From Sulfuricurvum sp. (GTDB lineage: Bacteria > Campylobacterota > Campylobacteria > Campylobacterales > Sulfurimonadaceae), in assembly GCA_030694265.1 (NCBI GenBank), contig JAUXYP010000001.1:248001-312000 (forward strand): a DNA stretch of 64,000 nucleotides, given 5' to 3'. Of the stretch, positions 4,949 to 37,463 are shown one piece after another (position 1 is the stretch's first letter; every line of letters starts with the position of its first letter). A program made the position numbers and the translations under genes. The notes under the pieces were generated by a model. The model was not told the origin of the DNA. It was given only the letters and a program-made list of their open reading frames with translations, and did not search any database.

Positions 4949-5437
4949 ATGGCAAATAATGAGTTGACGTTTGGTGAAAATGAGTTTATCGTTTCAAAAA
5001 CAGATTTGAAGGGGAATATTACGTATGGGAATAGCCTTTTTATTAAAATTTCAGGCTATGAGGAAAATGAATTACTGAACAAGCCTCATAATATTTTACG
5101 CCATATTGATATGCCTGCACTCATATTTACATTATTATGGGAACGCATTCGCAAAGGTGAAGAAATTTTTGCATATGTTAAGAATAAGACAAAACAAGGA
5201 GATTTTTATTGGGTGTTTGCGCATGTAACGGCATCTTTAGATGCTAGTGGACAAATGATCGGTTTTCATTCTGTACGACGACGTCCGACACAAGAGGCGC
5301 TTTCAGTAATTAAACCTCTGTATACAGATTTGTTGCGTATTGAAAAAACAGGAGGAGTGGATGCATCCCGTAAACACCTCGAATCCATTCTTGCACAAAA
5401 AGGGGTCAATTATGACGAATTTATCTTCTCTCTCTAA
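4949..5437 (+). CDS. PAS domain sensor protein, Aer/CetB-like
   Basis: [44 protein letters not shown]..., the Aer/CetB-type PAS. Immediately upstream of an MCP. Confidence 0.85.
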
Positions 5438-6854
5438 AGTTCAGTATGCTAATCTAATTTCGCTTGGGATTTTCGCACTTGCCCTCAGTGTAGAATTTAT
5501 CATTGATGGCTTTAGCTGGGTCCGGATGTTTAATATTGCCAATTTTGGGCTGGCGTGGTTTATGTACATTAACCTTCGCGCTGCACAAGAAACTATCCGT
5601 AGTCTTGCCTCCATTATAGATGGTGCTAAACAAGGAAATCTGGAAGGAAGGATAACTCATATAAAAGACCATGGAGAGCTCAAAGATCTCGCATGGAATA
5701 CCAATAATCTCCTTGATCAGCTCGAAATTTTTATGCGGGAGATCAGTGCCGGTATCAATAATGCGAGTAAAAGTATTTTTTACCGTCAGATGATTCCTAA
5801 GGGACTTGCGGGTACATTTAATTATAATGCTGTCTTGATCAACAAAGCGATTCATGCTATGGAAGAGAGTCATGCACATATTGAGCGTATTGCTGTCAAT
5901 TCAACGCTGGGTGAAATCGGGCGCGGTATTGCGGGAGGTCTTACCGTTATACAGAGTGATTTGCAAGATAGCATTAAGAACCTTGATGAAATTGTGGGGG
6001 TGAGTAAAGTCACAGCGGATAACTCCAGCCGTACGGTCTGTGACCTCGAAAAGATCATCACTAAACTCTCTTCTCTCATTGAGCTCGTTGGAATCTCCAA
6101 TGATGCGATTAATGCCCTTAACAATAAAACCAATGAAATTAATTCAGTCCTTGATTTGATCAAGGATATCGCTGATCAAACGAATCTGCTGGCATTGAAT
6201 GCCGCTATCGAAGCGGCACGGGCAGGGGAACACGGGCGCGGATTTGCCGTTGTTGCGGATGAAGTCCGTAAATTGGCGGAACGGACTCAAAAGGCAACCG
6301 GCGAGATCGGGATCGCAATACAAACACTTCAGCAAGATGCTTCTGACATTCAAAATAATTCGGATGATATGAGTATTATTGCAAATGAGTCAAGTAGCAC
6401 GATTGAAACATTTCGAGATACCCTTCATTCGTTTAATCGTGATGCGCTTTCAACGGCTTTTCAAGCAGACATGATTCAAAAAACTACCTTTATCACGTTG
6501 GCTAAAATTGACCATGTCGCTTTTAAATCGAATGTTTTCAGTGCTATATTCCAAGGGCGTACAAAAGCCACTTTCTCCGATCATCATAGTTGTCGTCTCG
6601 GAAAATGGTATGATACGGGAATAGGGAAAGAGAAGTTTTCTCATCTCCCGAGCTTTCGTTTGGTGGAAAGACCTCATGCGCTTGTACACAGTAAGGCGCA
6701 TGAAAATCTCGCATTTATCCAGGGTGAGGATAGAGTGGTTGCAAACAAAGAGGTCATCGTCCGTAATTTCTTGGAGATGGAAGACGCCAGTGATGAGCTC
6801 TTGGTTATTTTAGATACTCTTCTGAGTGAATCCGCGGCTCAAAAGCAGCTATAA
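5412..6854 (+). CDS. Methyl-accepting chemotaxis protein, CetA-like, with C-terminal CZB (zinc-binding) domain
   Basis: N-terminal hydrophobic segments, MCP hairpin tip [39 protein letters not shown]-terminal [17 protein letters not shown]...[12 protein letters not shown] begins 5340; ATG at 5412 is preferred (26-bp overlap with the PAS gene, AGGGG upstream). Confidence 0.85.
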
Positions 6855-12080: not shown

Positions 12081-13493
12081 ATGACTGATTTGAAGCTTTT
12101 GATAGTTGATGATATGGACGTAAATCGTTTTATATTGGCGAATATATGTGGAAAATTAAATAATATAGAAACGCGTGAAGCAGAAAATGGCATTGAAGCC
12201 ATTGAGATAGCAGAGCAATGGCATCCTGACATTATATTGATGGATATTGTGATGCCAAAAATGGATGGATATGAAGCATCTAAGGTTATTAGAGCGCGTT
12301 ATCCGGAGATTATGATTATTGCCATAAGTGCAATGGCAGATCCAAGTATGGAAAAAAACTTAGCATCAATTGGTGTTGTTACGTATATTCATGAGCCTAT
12401 GGACAAAGACTTCATCCAATTTAAGCTAGAGAGTTTTTGCGAATTAATTCGTGCACAAAAGGGAAAATTCAAACAGCTTTCGAATGCTAAAGCCCTCAAC
12501 CCTTTTAGCACAGATATTCGCCATTTAAAAACTGTTTTTAATATAGATGATGCAGAGTCTATGATGGATTTTGGAATGTGGATATTGGGGAAAGTGCCCC
12601 TTTCCTGTTTTAAAGTAGATATAGCGCTTGAACTTTTTTATTCAATTATGCGTCAGAATACATTTAATCAAAAAACACTCTCTATTATAGTAGAAGAAAA
12701 TTTTTATGAAATATTTGTAACCATAGAAAGCGCAGAGGGATTTGTGCTTCAACAAGCATCTCGTGCATTGGCAGACAAACTGAAAGATAAGTGTGTCATC
12801 ACAGATACTTGTATCTATGTTCGTATGCCTTTGCAAGAGAGTGCTCCTCTTTCTACAACCCCGGTAAAATTGCCTGAGAAACATATGGAAGTACTAATAC
12901 CAATAGTCGAAACGAAAATTGAATCTGTTGAGCTGATCTGTACACCTGAGAAATCACTAGAAACACGGGTTGTTGTTGGTGAAGAAAAAGATTTATTGCG
13001 ACAGAGCTTTACACAAAAAACATCGGCGCAAGAGTACGTACAAGATATCGGTGGAGACGTTCTCGATGAAATTCGTGATTTGTCCAGTGCGGATAATGAA
13101 TGGCAAGAAGATCTTAGTGCGCTTGACAATGAAGCTACAGTAGAAAATTTACATCATTTTGCAGAGAGTGTATTGGGAACATACATCCATGCGATTAACG
13201 GTCTTTTTGAATTCACTGCGCTTGGCTATGCTCTTTCTGCTCTTGCACTAAGTATAAAAGAAAATTCGGAAGGGATCATTGGTGATCCAAAGAGACTAAA
13301 AACATTGCTTATGCTTTTAGAACACTTAGGCGAAGATCTTTCATCATGGCGAGAGCATATTTTCATTGCACAAGATACGGCAGACATCCATTACTTGGAC
13401 AGTTCATTTTTTAGTTCATGCATGCAAATTGAGGGGATAGTCAGCAATAAAGTTGTTCAATCTGATGACAATGATGAGATGGAATTTTTTTAA
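12081..13493 (+). CDS. Response regulator receiver protein with uncharacterised C-terminal helical region
   Basis: REC: LLIVDDMDVNRF...DIILMDIVMPKMDGYEA. C-terminus ends DDNDEMEFF. Confidence 0.8.
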   Translation: MTDLKLLIVDDMDVNRFILANICGKLNNIETREAENGIEAIEIAEQWHPDIILMDIVMPKMDGYEASKVIRARYPEIMIIAISAMADPSMEKNLASIGVVTYIHEPMDKDFIQFKLESFCELIRAQKGKFKQLSNAKALNPFSTDIRHLKTVFNIDDAESMMDFGMWILGKVPLSCFKVDIALELFYSIMRQNTFNQKTLSIIVEENFYEIFVTIESAEGFVLQQASRALADKLKDKCVITDTCIYVRMPLQESAPLSTTPVKLPEKHMEVLIPIVETKIESVELICTPEKSLETRVVVGEEKDLLRQSFTQKTSAQEYVQDIGGDVLDEIRDLSSADNEWQEDLSALDNEATVENLHHFAESVLGTYIHAINGLFEFTALGYALSALALSIKENSEGIIGDPKRLKTLLMLLEHLGEDLSSWREHIFIAQDTADIHYLDSSFFSSCMQIEGIVSNKVVQSDDNDEMEFF

Positions 13494-13515
13494 ACACACT
13501 TCAAGGAGGAAATAA

Positions 13516-13902
13516 ATGGCAAAAAGAGTGATTATTGTTGACGATTCGAGGGCGGTTATTGCAACAGCACAACTCGCGTTGGATGAGATAATAAGCAGTG
13601 GAGTAATTGAATTCAAATCGTATTTGAATCCAGCGGAACTGTTAGCTGCACTTCAAAGCGGTGCAGAGAATTTTGATTTGCTTATCAGCGATGTCAATAT
13701 GCCTGAGATGAACGGATTGGATCTGGCCCGAGCGATCAAAGCGGATGATCGGTACAAAACCAAACCTATCATTATCTTAACGACGGAGAGTTCAGATCAG
13801 ATGAAAATGGCAGGTAAAGAGATCGGAGTGACCGGGTGGATGGTCAAACCTTTCAGTGATGAAAAGATGGTCAAATCGATCAAAATGGTATTGGGGGTAT
13901 AA
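13516..13902 (+). CDS. cheY: CheY-like single-domain response regulator
   Basis: RVIIVDDSRAVI, LLISDVNMPEMNGLDLA, PIIILTTE, GWMVKPF. AGGAGG SD upstream. Confidence 0.85.
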   Translation: MAKRVIIVDDSRAVIATAQLALDEIISSGVIEFKSYLNPAELLAALQSGAENFDLLISDVNMPEMNGLDLARAIKADDRYKTKPIIILTTESSDQMKMAGKEIGVTGWMVKPFSDEKMVKSIKMVLGV

Positions 13903-13904
13903 CA

Positions 13905-14402
13905 ATGGAAATAAACACAGCTCAATCTAGAAGAGAACGGTATCTGACGTTCTTTTTAGGTGAGGAACAATACGGTATTGCAATCGACCGTATCAAAGAG
14001 ATTATTGCGATGATGAAGGTGACGTATGTCCCTAAAACACCTGAGTATATGAAAGGGGTCATCAACCTGCGCGGTTCGATTATCCCTGTTGTGGATACAA
14101 GGTTACGTTTTGGAATGGAGCCTCAAGAGCCTGACATGCATACGACGATTATCATTGTTGAAGTGTCAAAAGTCAATATCGGCTTTATTGTAGACCGTGT
14201 AGAAGAGGTCGCATCGATCGATTCAGCCAACATGGGAGCAGCTCCGAAATTCGGTAGTAACGTGGATACTGATTTTATCTGTTCTATGGCGCAGATCGAA
14301 GAAAATGTTGTGATGATACTCGATGTGCTCAAGCTTTTCGAAGCCGATGAGCTGGTAAGTTTAGAAGAGATACAAAAAACACAAACAACAGAGGGAGAAT
14401 AA
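13905..14402 (+). CDS. cheW: Chemotaxis coupling protein CheW
   Basis: [22 protein letters not shown]...[24 protein letters not shown]. Confidence 0.93.
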
Positions 14403-14403
14403 G

Positions 14404-16050
14404 ATGAATTGGTTAGAAAATATGGTATTGCAAAGTAAGTTAATCTTGCTGACGGCGGTTATGATGATAGCGCTTGGTGCACTTGGGTTTTTAGGGTACA
14501 GCACAACGCAAAAATGGGATAGCAGTATCAACGTAGTAGGTGCTGTTAAGCTTCCTTCTATTGTTGGTGTTATGGAGATGCGAATCGGAATTAATCAGGT
14601 TGTTATTCAGCAAAACCGTGTGCGCGGAGTGAAGGGTGATCCGAGAATGCGGGAAATCCTTCAGGATGCTATGGAGCGGACGAACAAAGGGCTCGAACGC
14701 TATGAAAAAGGGCTTAAAATTTATGCTCCTCTTCCGCAAACAGCTGAAGAAGCTATTGAGTGGAAAAAGTATGAAGAGAACTTTGGGAAATGGAAAGAAT
14801 TGAGTTTGAAGTTTCAAGCTAATACCCTTGAACCACTTTCTCGTAACACTGATCCGGCGATGGAAGAAACTTACTTTGCTCAGATGAAAACCTTTGTCGA
14901 AACAAGCCGTGATACTCGACAAGCGGCATTGGCTAGTATGGATGTTATTGGAAAAATCAACGTAGACAGTGCGGATGAAGAGGTTAAAATGGCGCAACAG
15001 GATGCAAGTTCTGCCGTACAAATGACGATAATGATTGTACTGATTGCTTTTGCTATCTCCATCATCTTGGCAATATTGATTATCCGCTCGATCACTCGCT
15101 CGATCACACAAAGCGTCACTTCAATCCGTGATGGTGCAATGCAGATCACCTCTGCTTCTGACCAAGTCGCTTCATCATCATCCTCTTTGGCACAAGGGGC
15201 CAGCGAACAAGCAAGCAGTGTTGAAGAAGTCAGCGCAACACTCGAAGAGTCTACTGCGATCAATACCCAAAACACTGATAACGCACGTCAAGCCGATATT
15301 TTGGCAAGAAACGCAAACGATTCGGCGAAAGCGGGATATGAGAAGGGGGAACAGCTCTCTCACTCTATGCACGCGATTACCGAATCAGCGGCTAAAATTT
15401 CAGGAATCATTAAAACCATCGACCAAATCGCCTTCCAAACCAACCTTTTGGCTCTTAACGCGGCGGTTGAAGCGGCTCGTGCCGGTGAACACGGTTTAGG
15501 GTTTGCAGTCGTTGCGGATGAAGTACGTAATTTGGCACAACGTGCAGCCTCTGCTGCCAAAGAGACTTCCGATATTATCGAAGAAGTTGTAAGCCAGATC
15601 AAAGAGGGAAACCAAATTGCTCTTGCAACACACACTTCATTCCAAGAGATCGTCGAACAGTCTAAAAAAGTATCTGATCTGATCGGTGAAATCTCGATTG
15701 CCGGCAAAGAACAATCCGAGGGTATGTCACAAATTAATCAGGCAATGGGACAAGTCGACCAAGTAACCCAACAAGTGGCTGCAAACTCTGAAGAAGCAGC
15801 AGCTGCCGCTGAAGAGCTCAATGCACAAGCGACCTCTATGATGGAAACCGTCGGTATTCTCGCTGCCATGGTAGGGATGCAAACCAATGCTCCTGTTGTG
15901 GCATCCAAGAAAAAGAAGGCTATTCAGCAATTGGAAATGAGAGCCCCTATCGCTCCTCGCAGAAATATTTCTGTTCCTCAACATAGAGGAGCTTCCGCGA
16001 AAGCAGAAGATGTTTTTCCTCTAAATGAGGATGACTTGAGAGAGTTCTAA
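14404..16050 (+). CDS. Methyl-accepting chemotaxis protein (4HB-like sensor, HAMP)
   Basis: TM1 [22 protein letters not shown]2 [21 protein letters not shown], hairpin tip [40 protein letters not shown]. Ends NEDDLREF. Confidence 0.93.
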
Positions 16051-16051
16051 G

Positions 16052-16315
16052 ATGCTATTTGACGGTGATGAGCTCACCATAGCTTTGGATATGCCAATGG
16101 AAGAAATTCGGGAGTTCGAACTGTTTGTTCGACCTCGTTTGGAATACATTGAAACCATAGAGGTTGAAGAGGGGACATCTTTGCGAAGCAGTTCTCTTTT
16201 AGCTTTACTGGTAAGCCTTAAGCGAACCCGTCCGGAGTTAAAAATACCTTTTTTAGACAAAGGCTTGACCGCTTCGAGCGGCAATGGAACCTTACATTGG
16301 ATGTGTCATGACTAA
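16052..16315 (+). CDS. Small STAS-like protein between MCP and cheA
   Basis: 87 aa. ...EVEEGTSLRSSSLLALLVSLKRTRPELKIPFLDKG resembles the STAS beta-alpha-beta core. Overlaps cheA by 8 bp. Confidence 0.5.
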   Translation: MLFDGDELTIALDMPMEEIREFELFVRPRLEYIETIEVEEGTSLRSSSLLALLVSLKRTRPELKIPFLDKGLTASSGNGTLHWMCHD

Positions 16316-18404
16316 ACAAGAACAAGTCAAAGCGATTTTTATCGAAGAAGCCGGGGAAATTATAGAGAAACTCGATGTCAACATTCTCCGTTTTGAAGAA
16401 GATTCGAGTGATTTTGATCTCTTAAACGAAATATTTCGAGGGGTTCATACGCTAAAAGGCAATGCCAATGCGTTTGGCTTTACCCGTTTGGGTGAATTTG
16501 TTCACCATTTCGAAGATGTATTGGATCATTACCGCAGTACGAAAGAAGATGTTGAAGAACACCTTCTTGAACTGTTTGTGGAAAGTGTAGACATCATTAA
16601 AGAAGTAATGATATGTGAACTTGATGCCCTTCCTGATCTTCCGAATGGTTATCCTGATTGTCTAAAAAGTATTAAAAATTTGATCGCTTCGAAAAAAAAC
16701 GGATCGCTATTGCCTACAATAGAAGAAACTCAAGAGGTCTTTGGTGATTTAGCTTCAGAGTTTGCGTTTGAGTCTCCCAGGGGAACAGAAGAAGCGGTAG
16801 AAAAAAGTATACAGTTTCACCGTGCGATGCAAGAGGATGGGCTTAATCTTTATAAAATTGAGCTTACATTGGATGCTGATTGTTATAAACGCGGATTTGA
16901 TCATCTCCTTTTTCTCAATTTATTGGGTGAAAAAGCAAAATCATTGGAGAGCTTTTTTGATATGGAAGACGTATCAACCCTCGATACATTTTCAAGCGAC
17001 GTTAACAGCATCAAAAAAGTCCATGTAATCGTATTAACTCCACAAACTGAGGAGGAGGTTGCAGAGAACTTTGAGTATTTATTCGATAATGAATACCACA
17101 TTACTCTGATTGCTCCCGTAGTAGCCCAGGCGGCTATTGAAAAAAAAGAAGTGATTGAAGAAACCATTGAAACACTTAAAAAACCAAAAGCAGAAGAGCG
17201 AAGAGGTACGGAGAGGGTAACGACAGGTTCTACTATTCGTATCGATACGTTCAAACTCGACGAACTCTTTGATTCGGTCGGTGAGTTGGTTATTGCCCAA
17301 AACTTCATCGCCCAGAATGAGCAAATTCGCGCAATCGAAGACGAATCAATAAAGCGAGCGATTGAAACACTTTCTAAGATCACGAAAAAAATTCAAGACC
17401 GGGTTATGAGTTTGAGAATGGTCGCGATACGTGATACATTTGACAAGATGAAACGTGTTGTTCGTGACACGTCTAAAAAGACAGGTAAAGAGCTTCATCT
17501 CAATGTCCAGGGTGAAGAGACAGAGATTGATAAAACAATGATCGACAGCCTCTCAGACCCATTGATCCATATTATCCGAAACGCAATCGATCATGGTTTG
17601 GAGTCTGATGCCGCAGAGCGACTGAGCGTCGGTAAAAAAGTGGAAGGGACGATCACATTACGTGCCTACCATAAAAGCGGCAGCATCGTCATCAGCGTCA
17701 GTGATGATGGGCGTGGAATCAACAAAGAAAAAGTGTTGCAAAAAGCGATAGAGCGAGGTGTTATTACCGGGGATGAAAATCTCACAGACAGTCAGATCTT
17801 TGGTTTGATTATGCAGCCCGGTTTTTCGACAGCCGATACGATCAGTGACCTATCAGGGCGCGGGGTTGGTTTGGATGTTGTTAAAACGTCAATAGAAAAG
17901 CTTCGCGGTAAAGTTGAAATCGATTCAAAAGAAGGAGTGGGGACAACATTCTCCATGGTTCTTCCTCTGACATTGGCAATTATTGACGGAATGCTTGTAC
18001 AGACTGCGGGAGAGATTTACATCATTCCTACTTTGAGTGTCGTCGAATCCTTCCGACCGAATCGTGAGATTGTAAACATAATCAAAGGGCAGGGCGAATT
18101 TGTCAGTATGCGCGGACAACACATCCCTGTTATACGATTAAGCGATGTATTTGATCTAACTACAGATCGTATCCCTCCTTGGGAGGGAATTTTGGTGTGC
18201 GTTGAAACGGAAGCCGGCCGCATCGCAATTATGGTAGATGAACTCATAGGGCGTCAGCAAGTAGTAATTAAGCCATTAGGTAAATCATTGGCGAAACTCA
18301 AAGAAATCACAGGTGGAGCAATCCTTGGTAGCGGTGATATTGCTTTGATCCTCAATGTCGATGAATTGCGCCCGCTTATTGAGGGTGCTCATGGTACAGC
18401 TTGA
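16308..18404 (+). CDS. cheA: Chemotaxis histidine kinase CheA
   Basis: Hpt EIFRGVHTLKGNANAFGF, N-box DPLIHIIRNAIDHGLE, SDDGRGI, SGRGVGLDVVK, C-terminal CheW-like domain. ORF begins 16284; ATG at 16308 (MTKQEQVKAIF) preferred. Confidence 0.93.
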   Translation: MTKQEQVKAIFIEEAGEIIEKLDVNILRFEEDSSDFDLLNEIFRGVHTLKGNANAFGFTRLGEFVHHFEDVLDHYRSTKEDVEEHLLELFVESVDIIKEVMICELDALPDLPNGYPDCLKSIKNLIASKKNGSLLPTIEETQEVFGDLASEFAFESPRGTEEAVEKSIQFHRAMQEDGLNLYKIELTLDADCYKRGFDHLLFLNLLGEKAKSLESFFDMEDVSTLDTFSSDVNSIKKVHVIVLTPQTEEEVAENFEYLFDNEYHITLIAPVVAQAAIEKKEVIEETIETLKKPKAEERRGTERVTTGSTIRIDTFKLDELFDSVGELVIAQNFIAQNEQIRAIEDESIKRAIETLSKITKKIQDRVMSLRMVAIRDTFDKMKRVVRDTSKKTGKELHLNVQGEETEIDKTMIDSLSDPLIHIIRNAIDHGLESDAAERLSVGKKVEGTITLRAYHKSGSIVISVSDDGRGINKEKVLQKAIERGVITGDENLTDSQIFGLIMQPGFSTADTISDLSGRGVGLDVVKTSIEKLRGKVEIDSKEGVGTTFSMVLPLTLAIIDGMLVQTAGEIYIIPTLSVVESFRPNREIVNIIKGQGEFVSMRGQHIPVIRLSDVFDLTTDRIPPWEGILVCVETEAGRIAIMVDELIGRQQVVIKPLGKSLAKLKEITGGAILGSGDIALILNVDELRPLIEGAHGTA

Positions 18405-19215
18405 ACTAAGTCCAGCGGATTTTGATCTTTTTCGCCGTTACATCTATGAAAAAGTAGGGATCTCCCTCTCTGATCAAAAAACCACCCTTGTTCAAGGGCG
18501 GCTGAATAAGCGGATCAATCAATTGGGGCTCAACTCATTTCGAGACTATTACGATTATTTGGTCACGGATGCATCTGGGGATGAGCTTGGTTTTTTTGTC
18601 AGTGCTATCTCCACCAATGTTACTTCTTTTTTTCGAGAGTCTGCTCAGTGGATATGGCTAGAGAGCTATTTACCGGCACTGATTGCCTCTAAGCGAGAGA
18701 AAAAAATCCGTATTTGGTCAGCAGGGTGTTCCAGCGGTGAGGAACCCTATACTATTTTGATGTTTTTACAGCACCATTTGAGTGATTTTGATCAGTGGGA
18801 CATCAAAATTTTGGCAACCGATATTTCTGCCAAAGTACTTTCCAAAGCCATTGTCGGAAAATACGAGGCAAAGCACGTCGAAGCACTTCCTAGGGACATT
18901 GCATTGCGTTCATTTGAAAAAGTACGTGGTGATACGCAAATGAGTTATCAAGTCCTTCCCCATTTACGGGAAAAAGTACTGTTTCGTCTTTATAATTTAG
19001 TAACGGACCCGTTTTTCTTCAAAAACAAATTTGATATGGTCTTTTGTCGAAATGTAATGATCTATTTTGATGACACTACCCGTCATGATCTAATAGGGCG
19101 CTTTGGAACTCTGCTTCCAAAAGGGGCACCACTGTTTTTAGGGAGTTCAGAATCCTTAACATCTCATCGTGATACATTGAAACTCTTGGGTTCTTCAATT
19201 TATCAACGACTGTAA
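18391..19215 (+). CDS. cheR: Chemotaxis protein methyltransferase CheR
   Basis: SAISTNVTSFFRE, IRIWSAGCSSGEEPYTILMFL, FDMVFCRNVMIYFDD. ORF begins 18355; ATG at 18391 (MVQLELSPADF) preferred. Confidence 0.92.
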   Translation: MVQLELSPADFDLFRRYIYEKVGISLSDQKTTLVQGRLNKRINQLGLNSFRDYYDYLVTDASGDELGFFVSAISTNVTSFFRESAQWIWLESYLPALIASKREKKIRIWSAGCSSGEEPYTILMFLQHHLSDFDQWDIKILATDISAKVLSKAIVGKYEAKHVEALPRDIALRSFEKVRGDTQMSYQVLPHLREKVLFRLYNLVTDPFFFKNKFDMVFCRNVMIYFDDTTRHDLIGRFGTLLPKGAPLFLGSSESLTSHRDTLKLLGSSIYQRL

Positions 19216-19232
19216 TAAGGATTTTATTATAT

Positions 19233-20603
19233 ATGGACAAAACTGTTATAAATAAGGAAGCTAAATTTGATAGCAACGAGCTTTTTTTTTCCATTACTGA
19301 CAAGCAAAGCACGATACTCTCAAGCAATAGTGTTTTTGTCCGAATCAGTGGTTATCAAAAAGAGGAGTTGATTGGGCATTATCACAATGTAATTCGTCAT
19401 CCGGATATGCCCAAAGTCATTTTTAAAACGCTTTGGGACTATTTACAAGCGGATAAACCGATTGTAGCCTATGTAAAAAATAGGGCAAAAGACGGAGGGT
19501 ATTATTGGGTCCTTGCGGCCGTTTTTCCCTTAAACGATAGCTATGTCTCCATTCGTATTAAGCCCAGTACAAAGATATTTTCTGCGGTAAAAGAAGTTTA
19601 TTTTAAATTGTTGATGGTTGAGAGCCAAGAGGGAGTAGACGCAAGTGCCCTTAGGATTTCAACTCTATTACGTGATTTAGGTTATGCAGATTATGATCAT
19701 TTTATGAGTGATGCTCTTTTGCAAGAACTGCAAGGGCGTCAGGAAATTATTTTTGGAACATGCCATAGTAAGCAAGATGTGGATTCTTCGTCTACATTAT
19801 TGCAAAATCTGAAGTCGGTTCACAGTTACAGTCAAGCTTTGATGGATGAATATGATCACTGGTTTGAAAAAATAGCAATGTTTAACAGTATCAAGTCGAT
19901 GTTTGAAGAAAAAGGGCTTTCGCTTCGTCATCTTGCGCGAGATATAGTCTTGTTATCGTTGAATGCTTCGGTATCATCACATAAAATTGCTCATGGTGGA
20001 GAAACTTTTGGTATTTTAGCTCGGGACATTCACAGTAATGCAAAAGATAATGATGTTCTAATCAATGATATCCATGAGATAGTTAACAAGGTCTCCAATT
20101 CGTTAAGCACAATAGTATTGGCTATCGCTTCAATGCGTTTGCAAATTGAGATGGTAACAAATTTCATCGAAGAAGTGTCCTGTAAAAAGAGTGATATGCC
20201 CTTGAGTGAAATGAGTGGAAATGTTTGCGATCTCATCGCTTTAATTGTGGCGTATTCGACTAAAACAAACGCATTACAAAACACGCTTGATATGCAAATT
20301 AATGAAAGTCTGGTGCATCTGGATCAATTAGAAAAGCAAATGATGTATTTGGGATACATACAGGTTTATGGTTTTATCGAAGCGGCTGCAAGTGAGGGTG
20401 AATCGGTACGATTTAAGGTTATCTTTTCTCAGTTGAAAACGCTCGTTATGCAAACTTCACAAGAGATTGATGTTATGCAAAAAAGCGGGAAACGTTTTTA
20501 CAGTGAGAACCGTCGGCTTATGGAAAAATCAAATGGGATTGATATGTTACTGAGTCATTTGAAAGAAGAGATGATGATGATTAAGACAATGGAGCAAGAA
20601 TGA
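19233..20603 (+). CDS. Soluble PAS protein with degenerate chemoreceptor-like helical hairpin
   Basis: N-terminal Aer/CetB-type PAS (RISGYQKEELIGHYHNVIRHPDMP). Later LLSLNASVSSHKIAHGGETFGILARDI aligns by eye with the MCP tip [27 protein letters not shown]. No TM segment evident. Confidence 0.75.
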   Translation: MDKTVINKEAKFDSNELFFSITDKQSTILSSNSVFVRISGYQKEELIGHYHNVIRHPDMPKVIFKTLWDYLQADKPIVAYVKNRAKDGGYYWVLAAVFPLNDSYVSIRIKPSTKIFSAVKEVYFKLLMVESQEGVDASALRISTLLRDLGYADYDHFMSDALLQELQGRQEIIFGTCHSKQDVDSSSTLLQNLKSVHSYSQALMDEYDHWFEKIAMFNSIKSMFEEKGLSLRHLARDIVLLSLNASVSSHKIAHGGETFGILARDIHSNAKDNDVLINDIHEIVNKVSNSLSTIVLAIASMRLQIEMVTNFIEEVSCKKSDMPLSEMSGNVCDLIALIVAYSTKTNALQNTLDMQINESLVHLDQLEKQMMYLGYIQVYGFIEAAASEGESVRFKVIFSQLKTLVMQTSQEIDVMQKSGKRFYSENRRLMEKSNGIDMLLSHLKEEMMMIKTMEQE

Positions 20604-21442
20604 TGAGAGAGACACCTCTTTATGAAGAAAAAAAATGTGAAGATGCATGCGAAGAGATTGCTTTTTTAAGTCATAAGATATTGGATTTAAATAAACAATT
20701 GATTGAAAGTGAAAAAGCCAAGTCACGGTTTTTATCGTTAATCGGTAACGAACTCAACAACCCAATGACGGCACTTTTAGGGATGATTCCTCGTTTGGCC
20801 CCTAAAAATGATGAAAAACTTGAAGCTATTTTTGCATTGGTACATGAAGAGGCATTAATATTGGATTTTCGCATTCAAAACTTGGTGACTGCATCGGAAA
20901 TAGAGAGTGGCGCATTCAATATTTCTCATTCATTGGTGGATATAAACGAGATCATCAAAGAGGCGATAGAGACATTAAAATACCCAATCAAAGTAAAAAA
21001 TATTGATATAGTCATTCATGATTCGTTAAAGCAAAAAGTTGTTACCGATCCTCAAAAACTCTATATTATCCTTAAAAATATTTTAGCTAATGCTATATGT
21101 TATGGGATAGCGGATGGTATTGTAGAAATTATCATTCTTGGTGATGACTCAAAGATATCAATTGCCGTGAAAAACCAAGGAAAAGGACCGGATGTAGAGT
21201 ATAAACCACAGGTTTTTACCCGTTTTGCCAATGGACCTGACGGAGCGCATGGATTAGGTCTTGGGCTAAGTATCGTTCGTAATTTGATGGAATGTTTGGA
21301 TGGAAGTATCGACTATGTTGTAGGCGATGGGACGGTCATATTTACACTTACTTTGCCTCTAGAAACAATCCTTCCTGATTCTGAAGCGTGTGGTTCCAAT
21401 GAATTTTTATTTGAATCGTTTGATGGGGCGATAGAACTCTAA
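20600..21442 (+). CDS. Histidine-kinase-like protein lacking the canonical phospho-acceptor His
   Basis: KSRFLSLIGNELNNPMTALLG at the H-box position; N-box ILKNILANAICYG; G2 HGLGLGLSIVRNLMECLDG. Confidence 0.75.
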   Translation: MMRETPLYEEKKCEDACEEIAFLSHKILDLNKQLIESEKAKSRFLSLIGNELNNPMTALLGMIPRLAPKNDEKLEAIFALVHEEALILDFRIQNLVTASEIESGAFNISHSLVDINEIIKEAIETLKYPIKVKNIDIVIHDSLKQKVVTDPQKLYIILKNILANAICYGIADGIVEIIILGDDSKISIAVKNQGKGPDVEYKPQVFTRFANGPDGAHGLGLGLSIVRNLMECLDGSIDYVVGDGTVIFTLTLPLETILPDSEACGSNEFLFESFDGAIEL

Positions 21443-21909
21443 TGATTCAAGGATGTTCCACTTTTATTCATGTAGGACAGATACATGTGGACACGGCACC
21501 CACCGCAATTTCTACGGTTCTAGGTTCGTGTGTTGCGGTATGTTTGTACGATGCTGGTCTTGGAATAGGGGGGATGAATCATTATTTACTCCCTTTTTGG
21601 AATGGGAATGGCTTGCAATCACCAAAGTTTGGAAATATCTCAATACCAAAACTGATTGAAGCGATGATGGCAAAAGGGTCGACCCATAAAAGCATTGAAG
21701 CTAAAATCTTTGGCGGCGCTTCTATGAATATCGGGATAAACGATTCAATGATGATTGGGCAAAAAAATATTTTGGTTGCTAAAGAAATTTTAAAAGAGTA
21801 TAAAATTGCCATCGTTGCCGAGGATATTGGTGGGCAAAGTGGGCGTAAGATACAGTTTGATTTACAACGGGGCAAAGTACTGTTGAAGTATGCTTCCAGT
21901 AATAATTAG
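21442..21909 (+). CDS. cheD: Chemoreceptor glutamine deamidase CheD
   Basis: ISTVLGSCVAVCLYDAGLGIGGMNHYLLP; KIFGGASMN; GRKIQFDLQRGKVLLK. Confidence 0.92.
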   Translation: MIQGCSTFIHVGQIHVDTAPTAISTVLGSCVAVCLYDAGLGIGGMNHYLLPFWNGNGLQSPKFGNISIPKLIEAMMAKGSTHKSIEAKIFGGASMNIGINDSMMIGQKNILVAKEILKEYKIAIVAEDIGGQSGRKIQFDLQRGKVLLKYASSNN

Positions 21910-21919
21910 GGGGTAGAGT

Positions 21920-22942
21920 ATGGCAATACGGGTACTAATTGTTGATGACAGTGCAACTGCGAGAGCCGTTTTAGCAGATATCCTTGGATCAGACCCTATG
22001 ATCGAAGTAGTAGGAACGGCATCGGATGCGTATGTCGCACGCGATAAAATAGTCGAATTGAAGCCGGATGTAATCTGCTTAGATGTAGAGATGCCTCGAA
22101 TGGATGGGATCACTTTTCTAAAACGCTTGATGCATTATATGCCTCTGCCGGTCATTATGGTTTCATCCCTCACACAAGCGGGAGCAAAAACGACACTCCA
22201 AGCACTCGAATCGGGTGCGGTCGATTTTGTACCCAAACCTCATTCCCATATTTATGATGGCAAAGATGAGATGCGTGACGAACTTATTTCAAAAATAAAA
22301 GTTGCAGCCAAAGTGAAAGTTAAACAGCGTGTATTGGGAAATACACAGCAGGCCAATACTACGTCACTGGCAGAAACGACCCATAAAATTTTGGCGATAG
22401 CGGCGTCTACTGGTGGAACGGAAGCACTGAAGGAGGTCTTAATGGGACTTCCCCGTAATGCCCCTGGAACCATTATTGTTCAGCATATGCCGGCTAATTT
22501 TACAGGGCCATTTGCAGAGAGGCTTAATTCCTTATGCGCAATGGAAGTACGTGAAGCCCGCAATGGTGATTCGATTACACCAGGTCTCGTATTGATAGCA
22601 CCTGGAGATTATCATATGGTAGTACGGCGTTCAGGTGCTCGTTACTATGTTGAAATAGGCAGTGGCGATAAAGTCTCCGGTCACCGTCCCTCAGCTGATG
22701 TACTACTTAACTCGGTTGCTAAAATTGCAGGAGCCAATGCTATTGGGGTTATCTTAACTGGGATGGGTGGTGATGGCGCACGAGGGTTACTTGCCATGCG
22801 TAATGCAGGTGCCAGAACTATTGGACAAGATGAAGCTAGTTGCATTGTTTATGGAATGCCAAAAGTAGCCTATGAACTAGGAGCAGTAGACATACAAGCA
22901 TCTTTACAGAAAATTTCTTCTCGTATATTAGAATCTTTATAA
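21920..22942 (+). CDS. cheB: Chemotaxis response regulator / protein-glutamate methylesterase CheB
   Basis: REC (VLIVDDSATARAV, DVICLDVEMPRMDG) plus methylesterase (IAASTGGTEAL, IIVQHMPANFTGPFAERL, LTGMGGDGARGLLAM). Confidence 0.95.
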   Translation: MAIRVLIVDDSATARAVLADILGSDPMIEVVGTASDAYVARDKIVELKPDVICLDVEMPRMDGITFLKRLMHYMPLPVIMVSSLTQAGAKTTLQALESGAVDFVPKPHSHIYDGKDEMRDELISKIKVAAKVKVKQRVLGNTQQANTTSLAETTHKILAIAASTGGTEALKEVLMGLPRNAPGTIIVQHMPANFTGPFAERLNSLCAMEVREARNGDSITPGLVLIAPGDYHMVVRRSGARYYVEIGSGDKVSGHRPSADVLLNSVAKIAGANAIGVILTGMGGDGARGLLAMRNAGARTIGQDEASCIVYGMPKVAYELGAVDIQASLQKISSRILESL

Positions 22943-31451: not shown

Positions 31452-34031
31452 TTACGCCATAACCCGGCTTAATGGGCGTGAAAAGGGCTGAACGAGCTGG
31501 GCATATATTTTCGGGATATCAAGGATAGAAATCATCTCATTTCCGAAATCTTCGGCTCTATCGGGGATGATAACTGCTTTGGTCAGCGAATTTTCATTTT
31601 TCAATACATTACTGTAATTGCTGATCGAACGCAGTGGAATCTCCGGACTGCTGTAAATTGCATCAACAGCGAGACCGAGATAGACTACCTGCTGCTCGAT
31701 GAGGGCTTTTACAATAATGATGGTATCGCTTTGCTTATTGTATTGCTTGTTGATACCTAAAAGTTTGCCGAGTGATATAACACTGACCATCCGTTTTTCA
31801 AATCCGATGACTCCCAAATTGTATTCGCTCGCATGGAGTATGGATGTGAGCTCTTGATGTACCAATGAACAGACGACGTTTTTGGACTCTACAGCAAACA
31901 GAGATTTATCAATGAAGAAGGTTGATATTTCACAGGTCTCTTCAGTCCCTGCCGCTTTTGGATAAACGTACGTACGTTTGGCAGGTGCTTCATTGACAAG
32001 AGCATGACACGCTCCAATAGGTCGGTAAAGAATAGCGATAATATCGTTGCTGTATCCATCGCTGTGTTTATATTCTCGGTAGCCGCTAGAACAGGTGGCA
32101 CCTACTGTGTAGTATATTCCGTTGAACTCAATCATCTGTGCGTCACTTTGCCCATTGGAAAGCTGTAGAATGGATTCTGGAAGCGTAACGGTTGAGCCAA
32201 TGGCAATCTCTTGGCTGGTTGAAGCAATAACTTGTCCTAAGCGATCAATGAAAAGTGCAAACATACCGTCTTTGATTTCATGATTTTCATTTTTTGGAAG
32301 GACATCGTGAAGCATGGCTTCAAATTGAGGCTGTGCATCAAATACGATACCGATTCCTCCGACTCCTTGCCCTGAAAAATCTTGTATACAGGCATTGTAA
32401 ATATACGTAGAACGGTTGTCATAAAAGATACTCGGTTCAAACGGTGAAACAATGTACTCTTGAGTTGACTCAAGGCGAAGCGTTTGGGAAGCCCAGTTGT
32501 AACCGACACGTTTACCGATGTAATGCGTCTCTTTTGTGTTCGATACGGCAACAATAAATCCATCTCGATCATATACGAACATCGACGTGTAGACCGTATA
32601 AAGATCGTTAATGGTGAGTAAGATAGCATTCATCTTTTCACGGTCGTCTTCGGTAATACTGGTTTGAGAGAGGATTTCTCGAAAGGTTGTTGTTAGCGCC
32701 CACCATCGTGAATCATTTGAGCGTTCATAGAGATTTCGGTCCATGATATCGATGGCCAAAGATGACTGAAATTTCTGATCTTCTAAATAGCGGATGAGCA
32801 TCGCGGTATTGAGATTGGCAACGGTATCGTCAAACACGAGTTTGGTCTCTTCCCCGGTTTTAGAAATTTCGTTGAGCAGCGCTTTTGTAAAAGGGTTTTC
32901 TTTATTGGCAGCGTTGGCGATTTGTACATTTCCGTTCCAAACGGTGATGTCGAGTTCGGTTTGAATTTTTTTCGCTTTGTCTAAAATATCGGTCAGCTCT
33001 TTTGGGAAATAGGCCGTTGCATTGGCCACCGTATCAAAAAGATTGTTTTTCAAAAATGAATTTCTGACAGAGGAACGAAATGCCAGATGCAGGGGAACCA
33101 TCGCATGCCCAATCCATCCCGGGCCGAAATAGCCTTGATATCCTCCGGTGGTGACCGATTTATAGAGGTATTCAAATCCTGCATAATAGGTTTGATGGGT
33201 TTCGCTATTACGGGTATCTAGATGCGATCCAACGGGAACGTGATGGGTTGAAGATGACGCGATGACCTGTTCTTTGACATTCAGAAGTTCTAATGCGATG
33301 TAGGGATTTTCACGGGTAAGTTTATGAAAAATACTTTTGAGTTCATCTTCAAATTTAAACATCAAACATAAAACGCCTAACGGTTCTTGCGTCTGGGGAT
33401 GATCGACGCGATAGGAGTAGATGAGAGAGGGTTTGTGATGGGTTAGATCACTGGTTCGAAACGTTTCGACGTACCCTTGATGGGTTCTTAAAGATTCTTG
33501 TATTAGGGGGTCTTTGGACATACTCACAGGATTTGTCTCATCAAGCTGTACCAGTACTTTGCCTTGTGTATCGAGTAAGATGATGTTCTCATAGACACTG
33601 TATTTGGCAACGTATTCGCGAAAATGTTGGGAAAGAGCTTCTTTTTTGGCTATTTTGAGATGTCTCATCTCATCAGAACTGGACATATCGGTAGTATTTA
33701 AGAAAATCAGATAATGGCGAATATCATCATCGGTTGCTAAAAAACCGATATCGGCGGTCCGTTCGAAAAGATTGCGGATTAAAATATCGATGGCCGATTG
33801 CGCTTTGGATTCGAGCTCATCGATACTTTTATGGAAGGTTTCCTGAGTGAGACGCAGCAGAGGCTCATCGAGGAGATCTTCGAAAGCTTTGCGGGTTTCA
33901 CTCGTATCCATTCCGATATTGGACATGGAACCAAGCAGGGTTAACAAATTCCATTTATCGGAGAGAGAACTCATGTTTTTTTCAAAATTTTGTACATCGG
34001 ACATGTAACCGATGAGGTGGTCGTAATGCAT
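31452..34031 (-). CDS. Tandem Cache-like sensor protein with C-terminal CheW domain
   Basis: Two Cache-like segments (RNLFERTADIGFLATDDDIR... and RNLYERSNDSRWWALTTTFRE...); C-terminal CheW-like CEISTFFIDKSLFAVESKNV...LGVIGFEKRMVSVISLGKLLGI. Confidence 0.75.
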   Translation of the reverse strand: MHYDHLIGYMSDVQNFEKNMSSLSDKWNLLTLLGSMSNIGMDTSETRKAFEDLLDEPLLRLTQETFHKSIDELESKAQSAIDILIRNLFERTADIGFLATDDDIRHYLIFLNTTDMSSSDEMRHLKIAKKEALSQHFREYVAKYSVYENIILLDTQGKVLVQLDETNPVSMSKDPLIQESLRTHQGYVETFRTSDLTHHKPSLIYSYRVDHPQTQEPLGVLCLMFKFEDELKSIFHKLTRENPYIALELLNVKEQVIASSSTHHVPVGSHLDTRNSETHQTYYAGFEYLYKSVTTGGYQGYFGPGWIGHAMVPLHLAFRSSVRNSFLKNNLFDTVANATAYFPKELTDILDKAKKIQTELDITVWNGNVQIANAANKENPFTKALLNEISKTGEETKLVFDDTVANLNTAMLIRYLEDQKFQSSLAIDIMDRNLYERSNDSRWWALTTTFREILSQTSITEDDREKMNAILLTINDLYTVYTSMFVYDRDGFIVAVSNTKETHYIGKRVGYNWASQTLRLESTQEYIVSPFEPSIFYDNRSTYIYNACIQDFSGQGVGGIGIVFDAQPQFEAMLHDVLPKNENHEIKDGMFALFIDRLGQVIASTSQEIAIGSTVTLPESILQLSNGQSDAQMIEFNGIYYTVGATCSSGYREYKHSDGYSNDIIAILYRPIGACHALVNEAPAKRTYVYPKAAGTEETCEISTFFIDKSLFAVESKNVVCSLVHQELTSILHASEYNLGVIGFEKRMVSVISLGKLLGINKQYNKQSDTIIIVKALIEQQVVYLGLAVDAIYSSPEIPLRSISNYSNVLKNENSLTKAVIIPDRAEDFGNEMISILDIPKIYAQLVQPFSRPLSRVMA

Positions 34032-34129: not shown

Positions 34130-34155
34130 ATAATAAGAGTTAAAACTCTTATTAT
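34130..34155 (-). terminator. Inverted repeat (12-bp arms) at the selO 3' end, terminator-like
   Basis: ATAATAAGAGTT-AA-AACTCTTATTAT, perfect arms, overlapping the selO stop. Only a short T-rich tail on the minus strand. Confidence 0.5.
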
Positions 34156-35588
34156 GATGAGCAGCTTAGCTTGAGGTTAGTATGTTGTAACGGGGTAGAT
34201 TGCGCATAGCGTTCAAATTCAGGATGTTCATCATAGGGGCTTTGTGCGAGTTTTAAAAGACCATTAACGAGACTAAAATCATCTTTTTCGGCTAGGTCTA
34301 TGGCTTCTTGTAAGATATAGTTTTTGAGTACGTATTTTGGATTACACGCTAGCATTTTTGCATGGCGTTCATGGACGGATGAGGTATTGATTTGTAAACA
34401 TTCGTCGTAGATGTCCAGCCAGTCATTAAGCTGATTAGGAGCCAAGCTCAAAGCAAGCAGAGGGCTTCGATCTCCCTCATAATGACTCAGTGTTCGGAAA
34501 AATGGGGTCATGTCGGTGCGTCCATTTTCCATGGTGGTGAAGAGGGAGCGAAAGAGGGTACTTTCCTCATCGGGAAGAGTGTCCAATCCCAGTTTATTTT
34601 TGAGCAGTTCGAGCAGTTTTGTGGTGAAATAGTTCCCGTATTTTTCAAGTTCATGTGCCGATTTTTCAGGTGAGATCAGCGGTGAAAGGGCACGTCCCAG
34701 TTGGGCAAGATTCCAGTGACCGATGCGGGGTTGGTTGTCATAGCTGTATCGCCCCTCATGATCGGTATGGTTACAGATATAGCCTGATTCAAAGGTGTCT
34801 AGGAACGCATAGGGGCCGTAATCGATGGTTATTCCGATTGCTGACATGTTATCGGTGTTCATAACGCCATGGTTGAATCCTACGCTTTGCCAATGAGCAA
34901 TCATATGGGCGGTACGTTTGACGATTTCCCCGTACATTTTTGTATAGGCATCTTCAACGCCCACGAGTTCAGGGAACGATTCTGTGATTAGAAAATCGGC
35001 AAGCTGTTCAAGCTGTGCATGTTTATTGGAGTGAAAAAAATACTCAAAGCTTCCAAAGCGTATCCATGAGGGGGAGAGACGCAAAACAATGGCTCCTCGT
35101 TCCCAGTTCTCCCGTGCCACTTTCTCATCTGAGCTGATAAGGGCCAAAGCACGTGATGTCGGGATACCAAGAGCGTGCATCGCTTCGCTCATCAGGTATT
35201 CTCGGATAGAGGACCGCAGGACGGCACGACCATCACCTTGTCTCGAATAGAGAGTTTGTCCTGAACCTTTGAGTTGCAGATTCCATCCATTGTACAATCC
35301 CAGATTAATGGCGCGTCCATCACCGAGTCTAGGGACAAAATAGCCAAACTGATGCCCTGCATAGCACATAGCGTAGGGGCGTGAACCGTTGAGTATTTGA
35401 GTACCATTGAGTATGTTGGTTAACTGTTCAGGGACAATTTGATCAGGGTCCAGTCCTAGCAGTTGCACTGCATCTGTGTTGTAGCTGACAAGCTGTGGAT
35501 TGTGAAGAGGTGTAGGATGCACCTCATGATAAAAGATCGGGTCAAGATTCAGATAAGGAGTTGTAAGGGAGATAGTTTCTATTTTCAT
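34152..35588 (-). CDS. selO: Protein adenylyltransferase SelO (YdiU family)
   Basis: 478 aa. YAMCYAGHQFGYFVPRLGDGRAINLG, LQLKGSGQTLYSRQGDGRAVLRSSIREYLMSEAM, GVMNTDNMS, C-terminal LSCSS. Confidence 0.93.
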   Translation of the reverse strand: MKIETISLTTPYLNLDPIFYHEVHPTPLHNPQLVSYNTDAVQLLGLDPDQIVPEQLTNILNGTQILNGSRPYAMCYAGHQFGYFVPRLGDGRAINLGLYNGWNLQLKGSGQTLYSRQGDGRAVLRSSIREYLMSEAMHALGIPTSRALALISSDEKVARENWERGAIVLRLSPSWIRFGSFEYFFHSNKHAQLEQLADFLITESFPELVGVEDAYTKMYGEIVKRTAHMIAHWQSVGFNHGVMNTDNMSAIGITIDYGPYAFLDTFESGYICNHTDHEGRYSYDNQPRIGHWNLAQLGRALSPLISPEKSAHELEKYGNYFTTKLLELLKNKLGLDTLPDEESTLFRSLFTTMENGRTDMTPFFRTLSHYEGDRSPLLALSLAPNQLNDWLDIYDECLQINTSSVHERHAKMLACNPKYVLKNYILQEAIDLAEKDDFSLVNGLLKLAQSPYDEHPEFERYAQSTPLQHTNLKLSCSS

Positions 35589-35660: not shown

Positions 35661-37463
35661 CTAGGATTCGAAAAAGAATTTTTTCTCGTCGCCTTCTTTG
35701 TGCAATTTAATATGAGTGACCTTTCCTATAGGAGAAACGGCATAAACCCTATGTGTTTTTGGATCAACGAATTGGATGCGTGTATGTCCGTCATAGGCCT
35801 TTTGATGCGTTACAACTGCATGCAAATCGGCATCATAGAGTTTGTTGAGTTTACGCTCAAATGCGTGTATCGCATCTTCTTGTGCTTTGATCATAATTTC
35901 TTCATTCTTTAGGTAGGCAACCGCACTTTTATACTGAGTAACCCGCACCTGATCCGCTTTGAGCGGGTCACGATTTTGTCGCTTTGCAGTATTGATATTT
36001 TCGATGCTGCGTTGAACACGCAGATGATGCTCTTTGAGAGCAATCTCCTTTTGCAAATACTCTTTCCCTCTTTGCTGCAACTCAAATTGTTTACGTGCTA
36101 ATTCATTCTCTAAAACAGTGATTTGATCCAAATAACTCGGGATTGCCCGTGGGTTTATAATGAGCTCATTGCCATTTCCCACAATACTTTTTATTTCAAT
36201 CGATTCAAGTGCGGTGATTTTGGCATTCGAATAGAGTACATCAATAATGACACGCTCGGCAATAATTTCGCCTCCGGACATATTTTTGACATAAACAGTT
36301 TCACCTTCGATGGTTCCTGCTTCGAGTATATCAATGGTGGCATTTTTGGCTTTTAAATTTCCGCGGTGGAGATGAATAGTAGCATTTTCTTGCACTTCAA
36401 TCAACGATTTTTTGTGAGTTTGAGCTCCGATGGTTAATTCGCAGGCTTGGATCTTTGTATTGCTTCCAATCGTCCCTTTTACATCGAGTGTTTGAACCTC
36501 GATATTGACACCTGATCCAACAGCGTCACCATCTTCATCTCCGTGACCTATTTTGATATTTATCTCTTTTTCTTGACCCGCTTCCAACGAACCGGTGCTT
36601 CTGAAACTGGCACTTTTTAAATGAAGATCCTGACTGACAGAAAAGATGCCGTTTTTACGTTCGATGAATCCAGATTTGGTTGCATAGAAACGGATGGAAT
36701 GGTGATCTTCTTCGGCTCTAATACTCTCTGGATCAATAATAATGGCATTCTCATAGCGAATCAATGGCTCCCCAATATGGATGTGTTCTCCTGTACAGCT
36801 ACGTCCATCTAGACCCCAAACGGGAAAAATATACTCCAAAATAAGGTCATCTACTGCAACGCCATCGACTAAATTATTTTCACGTTGTATTTTTTTATAG
36901 TGCTGTATTACATTGTCATTAGAAGGAGCAACAGGCGGAAAAAAATGGGCAATGGGTAAACGGTACGCAGCTACAAGTGGTCCCTCTTTTTGAATCTTCA
37001 GAAGCATCGCATTGATCTCCTTATCCAAACTTCCATCAGTGATCCCTATCATAAAGCCGCTGCGCAGTTTTTTACGATAAAGGGTCTCTTTTAAATACTC
37101 TTGCAATCCTTTTTTAAGGGGAAGCTTGGATGTTGGATCGATTATGGCGACTGCTTTGGATTTGTATTTATCCGAAGCTATGGTGAAACGAAGATCGAAA
37201 TGAGGATGCGGTACGAGAGGGCGTACGAGAATGTGATACTCTTGACGTATCAGTAATGTGGCTGAGCGGATTTCCACTTCAGTGGTGATCTCATCAAGGT
37301 TGGTTCCTTCAAGAGTACGCCAATCCTCATCGATGGTTCCACGATATTGGGTTTGGTACGAGAGCAAGTCAAAGTCAACAGCATCAATGGGCATACGCCA
37401 TTGCAGTGCTATCTTTTTAAGCTCATCAGGAACATTGGAAGTCGTTATTTTAATGGCGTGCAA
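35661..37463 (-). CDS. FapA/DUF342-family protein
   Basis: Polymeric beta-rich region (GSNTKIQACELTIGAQTHKKSLIEVQENATIHLHRGNLKAKNATI) followed by a coiled coil, typical of DUF342/FapA. Confidence 0.75.
   Translation of the reverse strand: MHAIKITTSNVPDELKKIALQWRMPIDAVDFDLLSYQTQYRGTIDEDWRTLEGTNLDEITTEVEIRSATLLIRQEYHILVRPLVPHPHFDLRFTIASDKYKSKAVAIIDPTSKLPLKKGLQEYLKETLYRKKLRSGFMIGITDGSLDKEINAMLLKIQKEGPLVAAYRLPIAHFFPPVAPSNDNVIQHYKKIQRENNLVDGVAVDDLILEYIFPVWGLDGRSCTGEHIHIGEPLIRYENAIIIDPESIRAEEDHHSIRFYATKSGFIERKNGIFSVSQDLHLKSASFRSTGSLEAGQEKEINIKIGHGDEDGDAVGSGVNIEVQTLDVKGTIGSNTKIQACELTIGAQTHKKSLIEVQENATIHLHRGNLKAKNATIDILEAGTIEGETVYVKNMSGGEIIAERVIIDVLYSNAKITALESIEIKSIVGNGNELIINPRAIPSYLDQITVLENELARKQFELQQRGKEYLQKEIALKEHHLRVQRSIENINTAKRQNRDPLKADQVRVTQYKSAVAYLKNEEIMIKAQEDAIHAFERKLNKLYDADLHAVVTHQKAYDGHTRIQFVDPKTHRVYAVSPIGKVTHIKLHKEGDEKKFFFES

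Follow-up and report, generated by a model that had tools for sequence, protein, structure and literature searches.

Cache domains have been described as extracytoplasmic sensor domains, with PAS as their cytosolic counterpart (PMC12889525, PMC10767990). One gene in the 64-kb window (the whole stretch of Sulfuricurvum DNA that was analyzed) raises the question of whether this division always holds, as it codes for an 859 aa protein in which two dCache domains are placed in the cytosol and joined to an array coupling protein, CheW, rather than to a receptor. An earlier, sequence-only reading had suggested a cytosolic ligand sensor that plugs directly into the chemosensory array. The analysis described here favors a soluble sensing coupling protein, with a probability of roughly 0.7. 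The features of the gene and its surroundings are given in Table 1.

Table 1. Features of the tandem dCache-CheW gene and of its neighborhood (window coordinates; residues refer to the 859 aa protein)
Feature	Position	Strand	Basis or remarks
Whole gene, tandem dCache-CheW protein, 859 aa	31452..34031	(-)	Intact ORF, Pfam, AlphaFold, relatives
Helical hairpin 1 (residues 11-100; helices 11-36, 44-100)	33732..34001	(-)	AlphaFold
Motif 1, RNLFERTAD (residues 86-94)	33750..33776	(-)	Family alignment
dCache domain 1 (residues 102-317)	33081..33728	(-)	Pfam dCache_1, AlphaFold, Foldseek
Helical hairpin 2 (residues 344-444; helices 344-373, 380-444)	32700..33002	(-)	AlphaFold, internal repeat
Motif 2, RNLYERSND (residues 432-440)	32712..32738	(-)	Family alignment
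dCache domain 2 (residues 448-678)	31998..32690	(-)	Foldseek to DctB, NagS, Tlp3; homology to mini-MCP dCache, E 3e-31
CheW domain (residues 699-846), divergent, NLRG -> GFEK	31494..31937	(-)	Pfam, Foldseek, tree, residues
SelO (protein adenylyltransferase family)	34152..35588	(-)	Conserved upstream neighbor in many genus relatives; no functional role claimed
600-aa protein, no Pfam/NCBIfam match	35661-37463	(-)	Conserved upstream of SelO or of the tandem dCache-CheW gene in Sulfuricurvum
Chemotaxis cluster, possible partner	12081..22942	(+)	CheW 13905-14402, MCP 14404-16050, CheA 16284-18404, CheR 18355-19215

The gene is present as a single copy in the source genome, begins with ATG, and has an AGGAG ribosome-binding site within 10 bases upstream. 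Since the open frame (862 aa) extends only three codons beyond the start, no signal peptide or TM helix is concealed upstream. From the N- to the C-terminus the layout is helical hairpin, dCache, hairpin, dCache and CheW, as seen by AlphaFold, Foldseek and Pfam together, and the minus-strand ORF with two Cache-like regions and a C-terminal CheW that had been proposed from the letters alone was borne out. The AlphaFold model (61-sequence alignment; pLDDT 82.1, pTM 0.72), a check that had been suggested beforehand, recovered two dCache folds and a CheW fold, in agreement with Foldseek. Solved dCache structures matched by the sensor domains include rpHK1S-Z16, Tlp3, NagS and DctB (TMt 0.6-0.73). 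The Pfam dCache_1 (PF02743) match at residues 87-228 scores 42.7 bits, just below the cut-off of 45 that is passed by four relatives (L097, L146, L114 and L105; 45.8-55.8 bits), and there is a weak match to Cache_WalK at 481-527. NCBIfam has no model for the protein, nor for two of its relatives.

Ahead of each Cache region stands an RNL(F/Y)ERxxD motif, as first noticed in the sequence-only reading; both copies are found in all 61 aligned full-length sequences, with the R, N, L, E, R and D residues invariant. Residues 1-325 and 330-690 are homologous within the protein (blastp, E 3e-8), as are the two hairpin-dCache units at the family level (hhalign 99.1%, E 1.8e-18 over 273 columns), and the hairpin-motif-dCache units are, judged by their sequences, an internal duplication. 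Hairpin 1 occupies the position of TM1 or of an MCP hairpin in other proteins, and is homologous to the hairpin of the CheW-less paralogues described below (hhalign 98.6%). A derivation of the hairpins from MCP tips was also considered, in view of their position and of the mini-MCP relatives described below; hhalign detects no homology between the two, and because the scores (10-13) are no better than those of column-shuffled controls (up to 15-18), such an origin is not claimed.

No membrane segment was detected. The highest score of any 19-residue hydrophobic window is 1.77, in a stretch of CheW beta strands that includes Lys and Glu, compared to 2.07-3.44 for true membrane proteins in the 64-kb window. 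No HAMP or MCPsignal domain is detected by Pfam, and a search for a TM pair or signal peptide, which had been named beforehand as evidence against a cytosolic protein, found neither in the protein nor in the 61 aligned sequences of its family. Hydrophobicity windows, Pfam and the upstream frame thus agree with the original view that TM helix, signal peptide, HAMP and MCP hairpin are all absent, and the dCache domains do not lie outside the cytoplasm between two TM helices, unlike the usual placement of dCache_1. Export or membrane anchoring of the dCache domains, in what would be a fragment or a misannotated receptor, would accord with the general description of Cache domains (PMC12889525, PMC10767990) but is very improbable and largely refuted by sequence: there is no upstream coding room, no TM segment or signal peptide in relatives, and CheW is at the C-terminus of a full-length form that is conserved across phyla.

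The same type of dCache domain was found by tblastn on plasmids, where it forms the C-terminus of proteins of about 345 aa, several of them annotated as methyl-accepting chemotaxis proteins. The hosts of these mini-MCPs are Burkholderia, Caballeronia, Ralstonia, Niveispirillum, Paraburkholderia, Methylobacterium, Tistrella and others, and the loci (L209:2668-3708, L210:2752-3786, L211 and L213-L217) specify an MCP hairpin tip and a C-terminal dCache only. The proteins begin almost directly with the hairpin tip (MCPsignal positions 39-89, 57 bits), have no TM segment, and carry a dCache homologous to both units of the 859 aa protein (hhalign E 3e-31 and 4e-25). They are of the same RNLYER dCache lineage, without a membrane segment and joined to a chemotaxis output, but the MCP tip precedes one dCache, whereas in the 859 aa protein CheW follows two. 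That one dCache lineage is combined with two different cytosolic outputs speaks strongly for a dCache type that works in the cytosol, and its presence on soluble mini-MCPs argues for a cytosolic dCache lineage, against the extracytoplasmic rule for Cache. This lineage is the point of greatest interest. We give an even chance to the broader proposal that it is ancient and widespread, is marked by RNL(F/Y)ER, and reports internal metabolites to arrays, either via CheW, with CheA regulated without a receptor, or via a minimal MCP tip. If true, this would break the rule by which Cache folds sense outside the cytoplasm and PAS folds within it. MtpA, a cytosolic receptor for formaldehyde taxis in Methylobacterium aquaticum (PMC10613068), might be a mini-MCP.

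The dCache-CheW protein is not unique but a member of a large, widespread family. A scan of one genome per species (85,462 species) returned 417 relatives. Relatives are present in 81 of 398 genomes of the phylum Campylobacterota and in 61/201 of the same taxonomic family, and a protein in L075 is 90% identical. The taxonomic spread of the full-length forms was taken from 80 of the 417 relatives, and among these 80, CheW-bearing forms occur in Campylobacterota, Gammaproteobacteria (Allochromatium, Thiorhodococcus), Betaproteobacteria (Rhodocyclus, Methylovorus, Paludibacterium, Gallionella), Deferribacterota (Seleniivibrio), Desulfobacterota (Desulfatibacillum) and a few MAGs labeled otherwise. 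Some family members are split into two frames (L074, G018:C36:13494-14766; G079:C5:303-2905), possibly decaying copies or assembly errors. Spread by mobile elements was considered and rejected, there being no phage match, while plasmid matches were to mini-MCPs only, on large, mostly non-mobilizable replicons.

Sulfuricurvum and other Campylobacterota also carry CheW-less tandem dCache paralogues of 630-680 aa (among them L055, L056, L059-L061, L185-L191, L194 and L195). These share the two hairpin-dCache units, at 31-41% identity for most and less for the most diverged, and stop after dCache 2, without CheW. A tree built from the sensor part splits CheW-bearing from CheW-less forms by one branch with 100/100 support, a pattern for which, the tree being unrooted, one fusion event or one loss would be sufficient explanation. 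Full-length homologues across phyla, both motifs in every one of the aligned sequences, and trees that fit a single fusion together argue that dCache-CheW is not a chance fusion. The persistence of CheW-less sensor paralogues in many genomes suggests that some of the function may be independent of CheW. In the most diverged of them the N-terminal hairpin (TTLTGKISSLDIAENLF) remains conserved even where the dCache motifs are eroding, suggesting a separate output role for this hairpin.

The C-terminal domain is recognized by Pfam as CheW (PF01584; residues 704-844, 51.1 bits against a cut-off of 23.5), and its fold matches solved CheW structures (Foldseek, TMt 0.79-0.80). In the tree, the CheW domains of the family form one clade (92/88 support), separate from CheW+CheV (87/72); an origin from the CheA P5 domain is rejected, P5 grouping apart with 100/98 support. 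Canonical CheW is marked by R62 of the NLRG motif. The E. coli residues N60 L61 R62 G63 correspond to G743 F744 E745 K746 in the 859 aa protein, and an arginine is found at the R62 position in only 11/61 family sequences. Among the other mapped contacts, R40 is replaced by L723, D107 by S794, R117 by S804 and F122 by V809. E18, R40 and D107 are receptor contacts of E. coli CheW (PMC6954272), and R117 and F122 are array-interface residues (PMC5181776). The D107 position, serine here, is an acid in 53 of the 61 family sequences, the acid at the E18 position is kept in all 61, and two conserved CheW residues, P796 and E797, are specific to the family. By inspection, canonical CheW proteins of the source genome also vary at R40, R117 and F122. 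The LRG arginine is kept there in the single-domain CheW of systems C9, C11 and C21 as well as in both CheV; the exceptions are confined to some of the CheW-type domains in the C12 (class F9-like) cluster.

The absence of CheW residues that contact CheA was named in the sequence-only reading as a point that would count against it, and this point holds in part: R62, R40, D107, R117 and F122 are lost, and the acid at E18 is kept. CheA P5 domains are likewise without the full contact set and still form rings, so the losses weaken the plug-in model but do not refute it. With the NLRG arginine and other contacts absent, docking in the array is plausible rather than readable from the residues. The CheW domain also varies more than the sensor (mean pair identity 32% vs 50%; lower in 1759 of 1830 pairs). 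A sensor that is far more conserved than its CheW points to a ligand shared by the family and to array partners that differ between lineages, and screening a single representative should be enough to find such a ligand.

A nearby CheA had been put forward as a partner, and this part of the proposal has to be corrected: the CheA of the cluster at 12081-22942, in which further CheY-, CheD- and CheB-like ORFs are recognizable by eye, ends about 13 kb from the gene, and the conserved neighbors in Sulfuricurvum are SelO and the 600-aa protein, not che genes. In other phyla the neighbors differ, and no che gene was recognized by eye beside the family genes. The 600-aa protein sometimes occurs as two tandem copies (L075, L076, L077 and L080) and by eye resembles FapA/DUF342-type proteins. 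Elsewhere in the window (5340-6854, plus strand) is an MCP with a C-terminal CZB (chemoreceptor zinc-binding) domain; MCPs of this type are linked to hypochlorous acid sensing. A further cluster of the source genome (G000 contig 12, 94218-104662) codes for a DosM-like receptor with a double signaling domain, a 470-aa triple CheW and a 931-aa CheA, and bears marks of a cytoplasmic class F9 system.

In all, the source genome has four CheA, 15 CheW-domain matches and 20 MCP-domain matches. Across the taxonomic family, CheA is found in 60/61 genomes that carry the protein family vs 113/140 that do not (Fisher p 3e-4, relatedness ignored), and in all 16 host genomes checked from outside the genus. 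Eight of the genomes with the family have a single detected CheA, with an adjoining CheV and a receiver-like tail. A CheA next to a CheV with receiver-like tail marks class F3 (PMC9321776), making F3 the likely, and sole, candidate partner in these eight. Family members in single-CheA species provide a clean genetic test.

These distributions bear on the main rival, in which a diverged CheW domain now serves another partner. The domain would then act outside the array as a module for dimerization or for binding a partner such as a histidine kinase or a c-di-GMP protein, and the protein as a whole would be a cytosolic metabolite sensor outside chemotaxis. Several of the observations that fit this reading are also those counted against the coupling model: the canonical signature residues, including the NLRG arginine, are lost, the CheW domain is less conserved, the gene lies outside che operons and beside SelO, and sensor-only paralogues exist. 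We nevertheless consider it unlikely, as the family goes with CheA-bearing genomes, the domain has retained the CheW fold, the acid at the E. coli E18 position and the family-specific P796 and E797, and dCache domains of this lineage are also found attached to MCP tips.

CheW is an inherently cytosolic protein. Together with the family-wide lack of a membrane segment, the occurrence of the dCache lineage on cytosolic MCP tips, and the near-constant presence of CheA, this makes a cytosolic CheW-fused sensor well supported. That much of the original idea of a sensor plugging into the array stands, whereas the array docking, given the lost CheW contact residues, is something that we infer, as are the dimerization, the direction of the signal and the ligand. 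In the favored model, that of a soluble sensing coupling protein, the tandem cytosolic dCache domains would bind one or two intracellular small molecules, while soluble helical hairpins would replace the membrane helices that normally hold dCache, and probably dimerize. The C-terminal CheW would dock in the CheA/CheW baseplate of the array, where ligand binding would tune CheA activity without a chemoreceptor. Bacteria probably use the family to steer by an intracellular cue. The position of the best-conserved motifs (RNLxER and GYxxYxG-type), near the helix base and not in the usual ligand pocket, could instead suggest a fixed-effect modulator of the array, competing with CheW for ring positions and setting the stoichiometry, with dCache mainly for dimerization. 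The known dCache_1 amino-acid motif was, in addition, not spotted by eye in the dCache domains. Such a modulator is improbable, as two complete dCache folds have been kept over several phyla, and the sensor region has conserved aromatics (YSVY/YTVY, SLIYSYRV and TYIY).

Other known kinds of protein can be compared with the 859 aa protein. Transmembrane dCache receptors (C. jejuni Tlp3, DctB, NagS and PctA) have the dCache fold in common with it (TMt 0.6-0.73), but possess TM helices and a periplasmic sensor, in place of which it is soluble and has helical hairpins. CheV is similar in being an extra coupling protein with CheW fused to an input domain. As had been proposed, the 859 aa protein is distinct from CheV, which has a receiver at its C-terminus: Pfam detects no receiver, two dCache domains are N-terminal, and the CheW domain branches outside the CheW+CheV clade. 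A keyword search of the literature brought no account of a Cache-CheW protein to light; a supplementary figure of Muok et al. lists 30 CheW architectures that are as yet undescribed, and dCache-CheW may be among them. The family is apparently an undescribed, though widespread, variant of the CheW-fused sensor, of which CheWS of Treponema denticola, a CheW fused to a CheR-like SAM sensor, is described as the first to be characterized in chemotaxis; it is reported to be tethered to the array beneath the rings and to modulate taxis (PMC10653840). By analogy, CheWS is the closest precedent, having a cytosolic sensor and CheW in one chain, and it shows that such a fusion can function. Compared by description, its CheW is followed by one SAM-binding CheR-like domain, a domain that Pfam and NCBIfam do not detect in the 859 aa protein, where two dCache domains precede a CheW of a clade of its own. 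If the favored reading is true, the steering of CheA by internal metabolites through CheW, reported once for CheWS, would occur in many more phyla.
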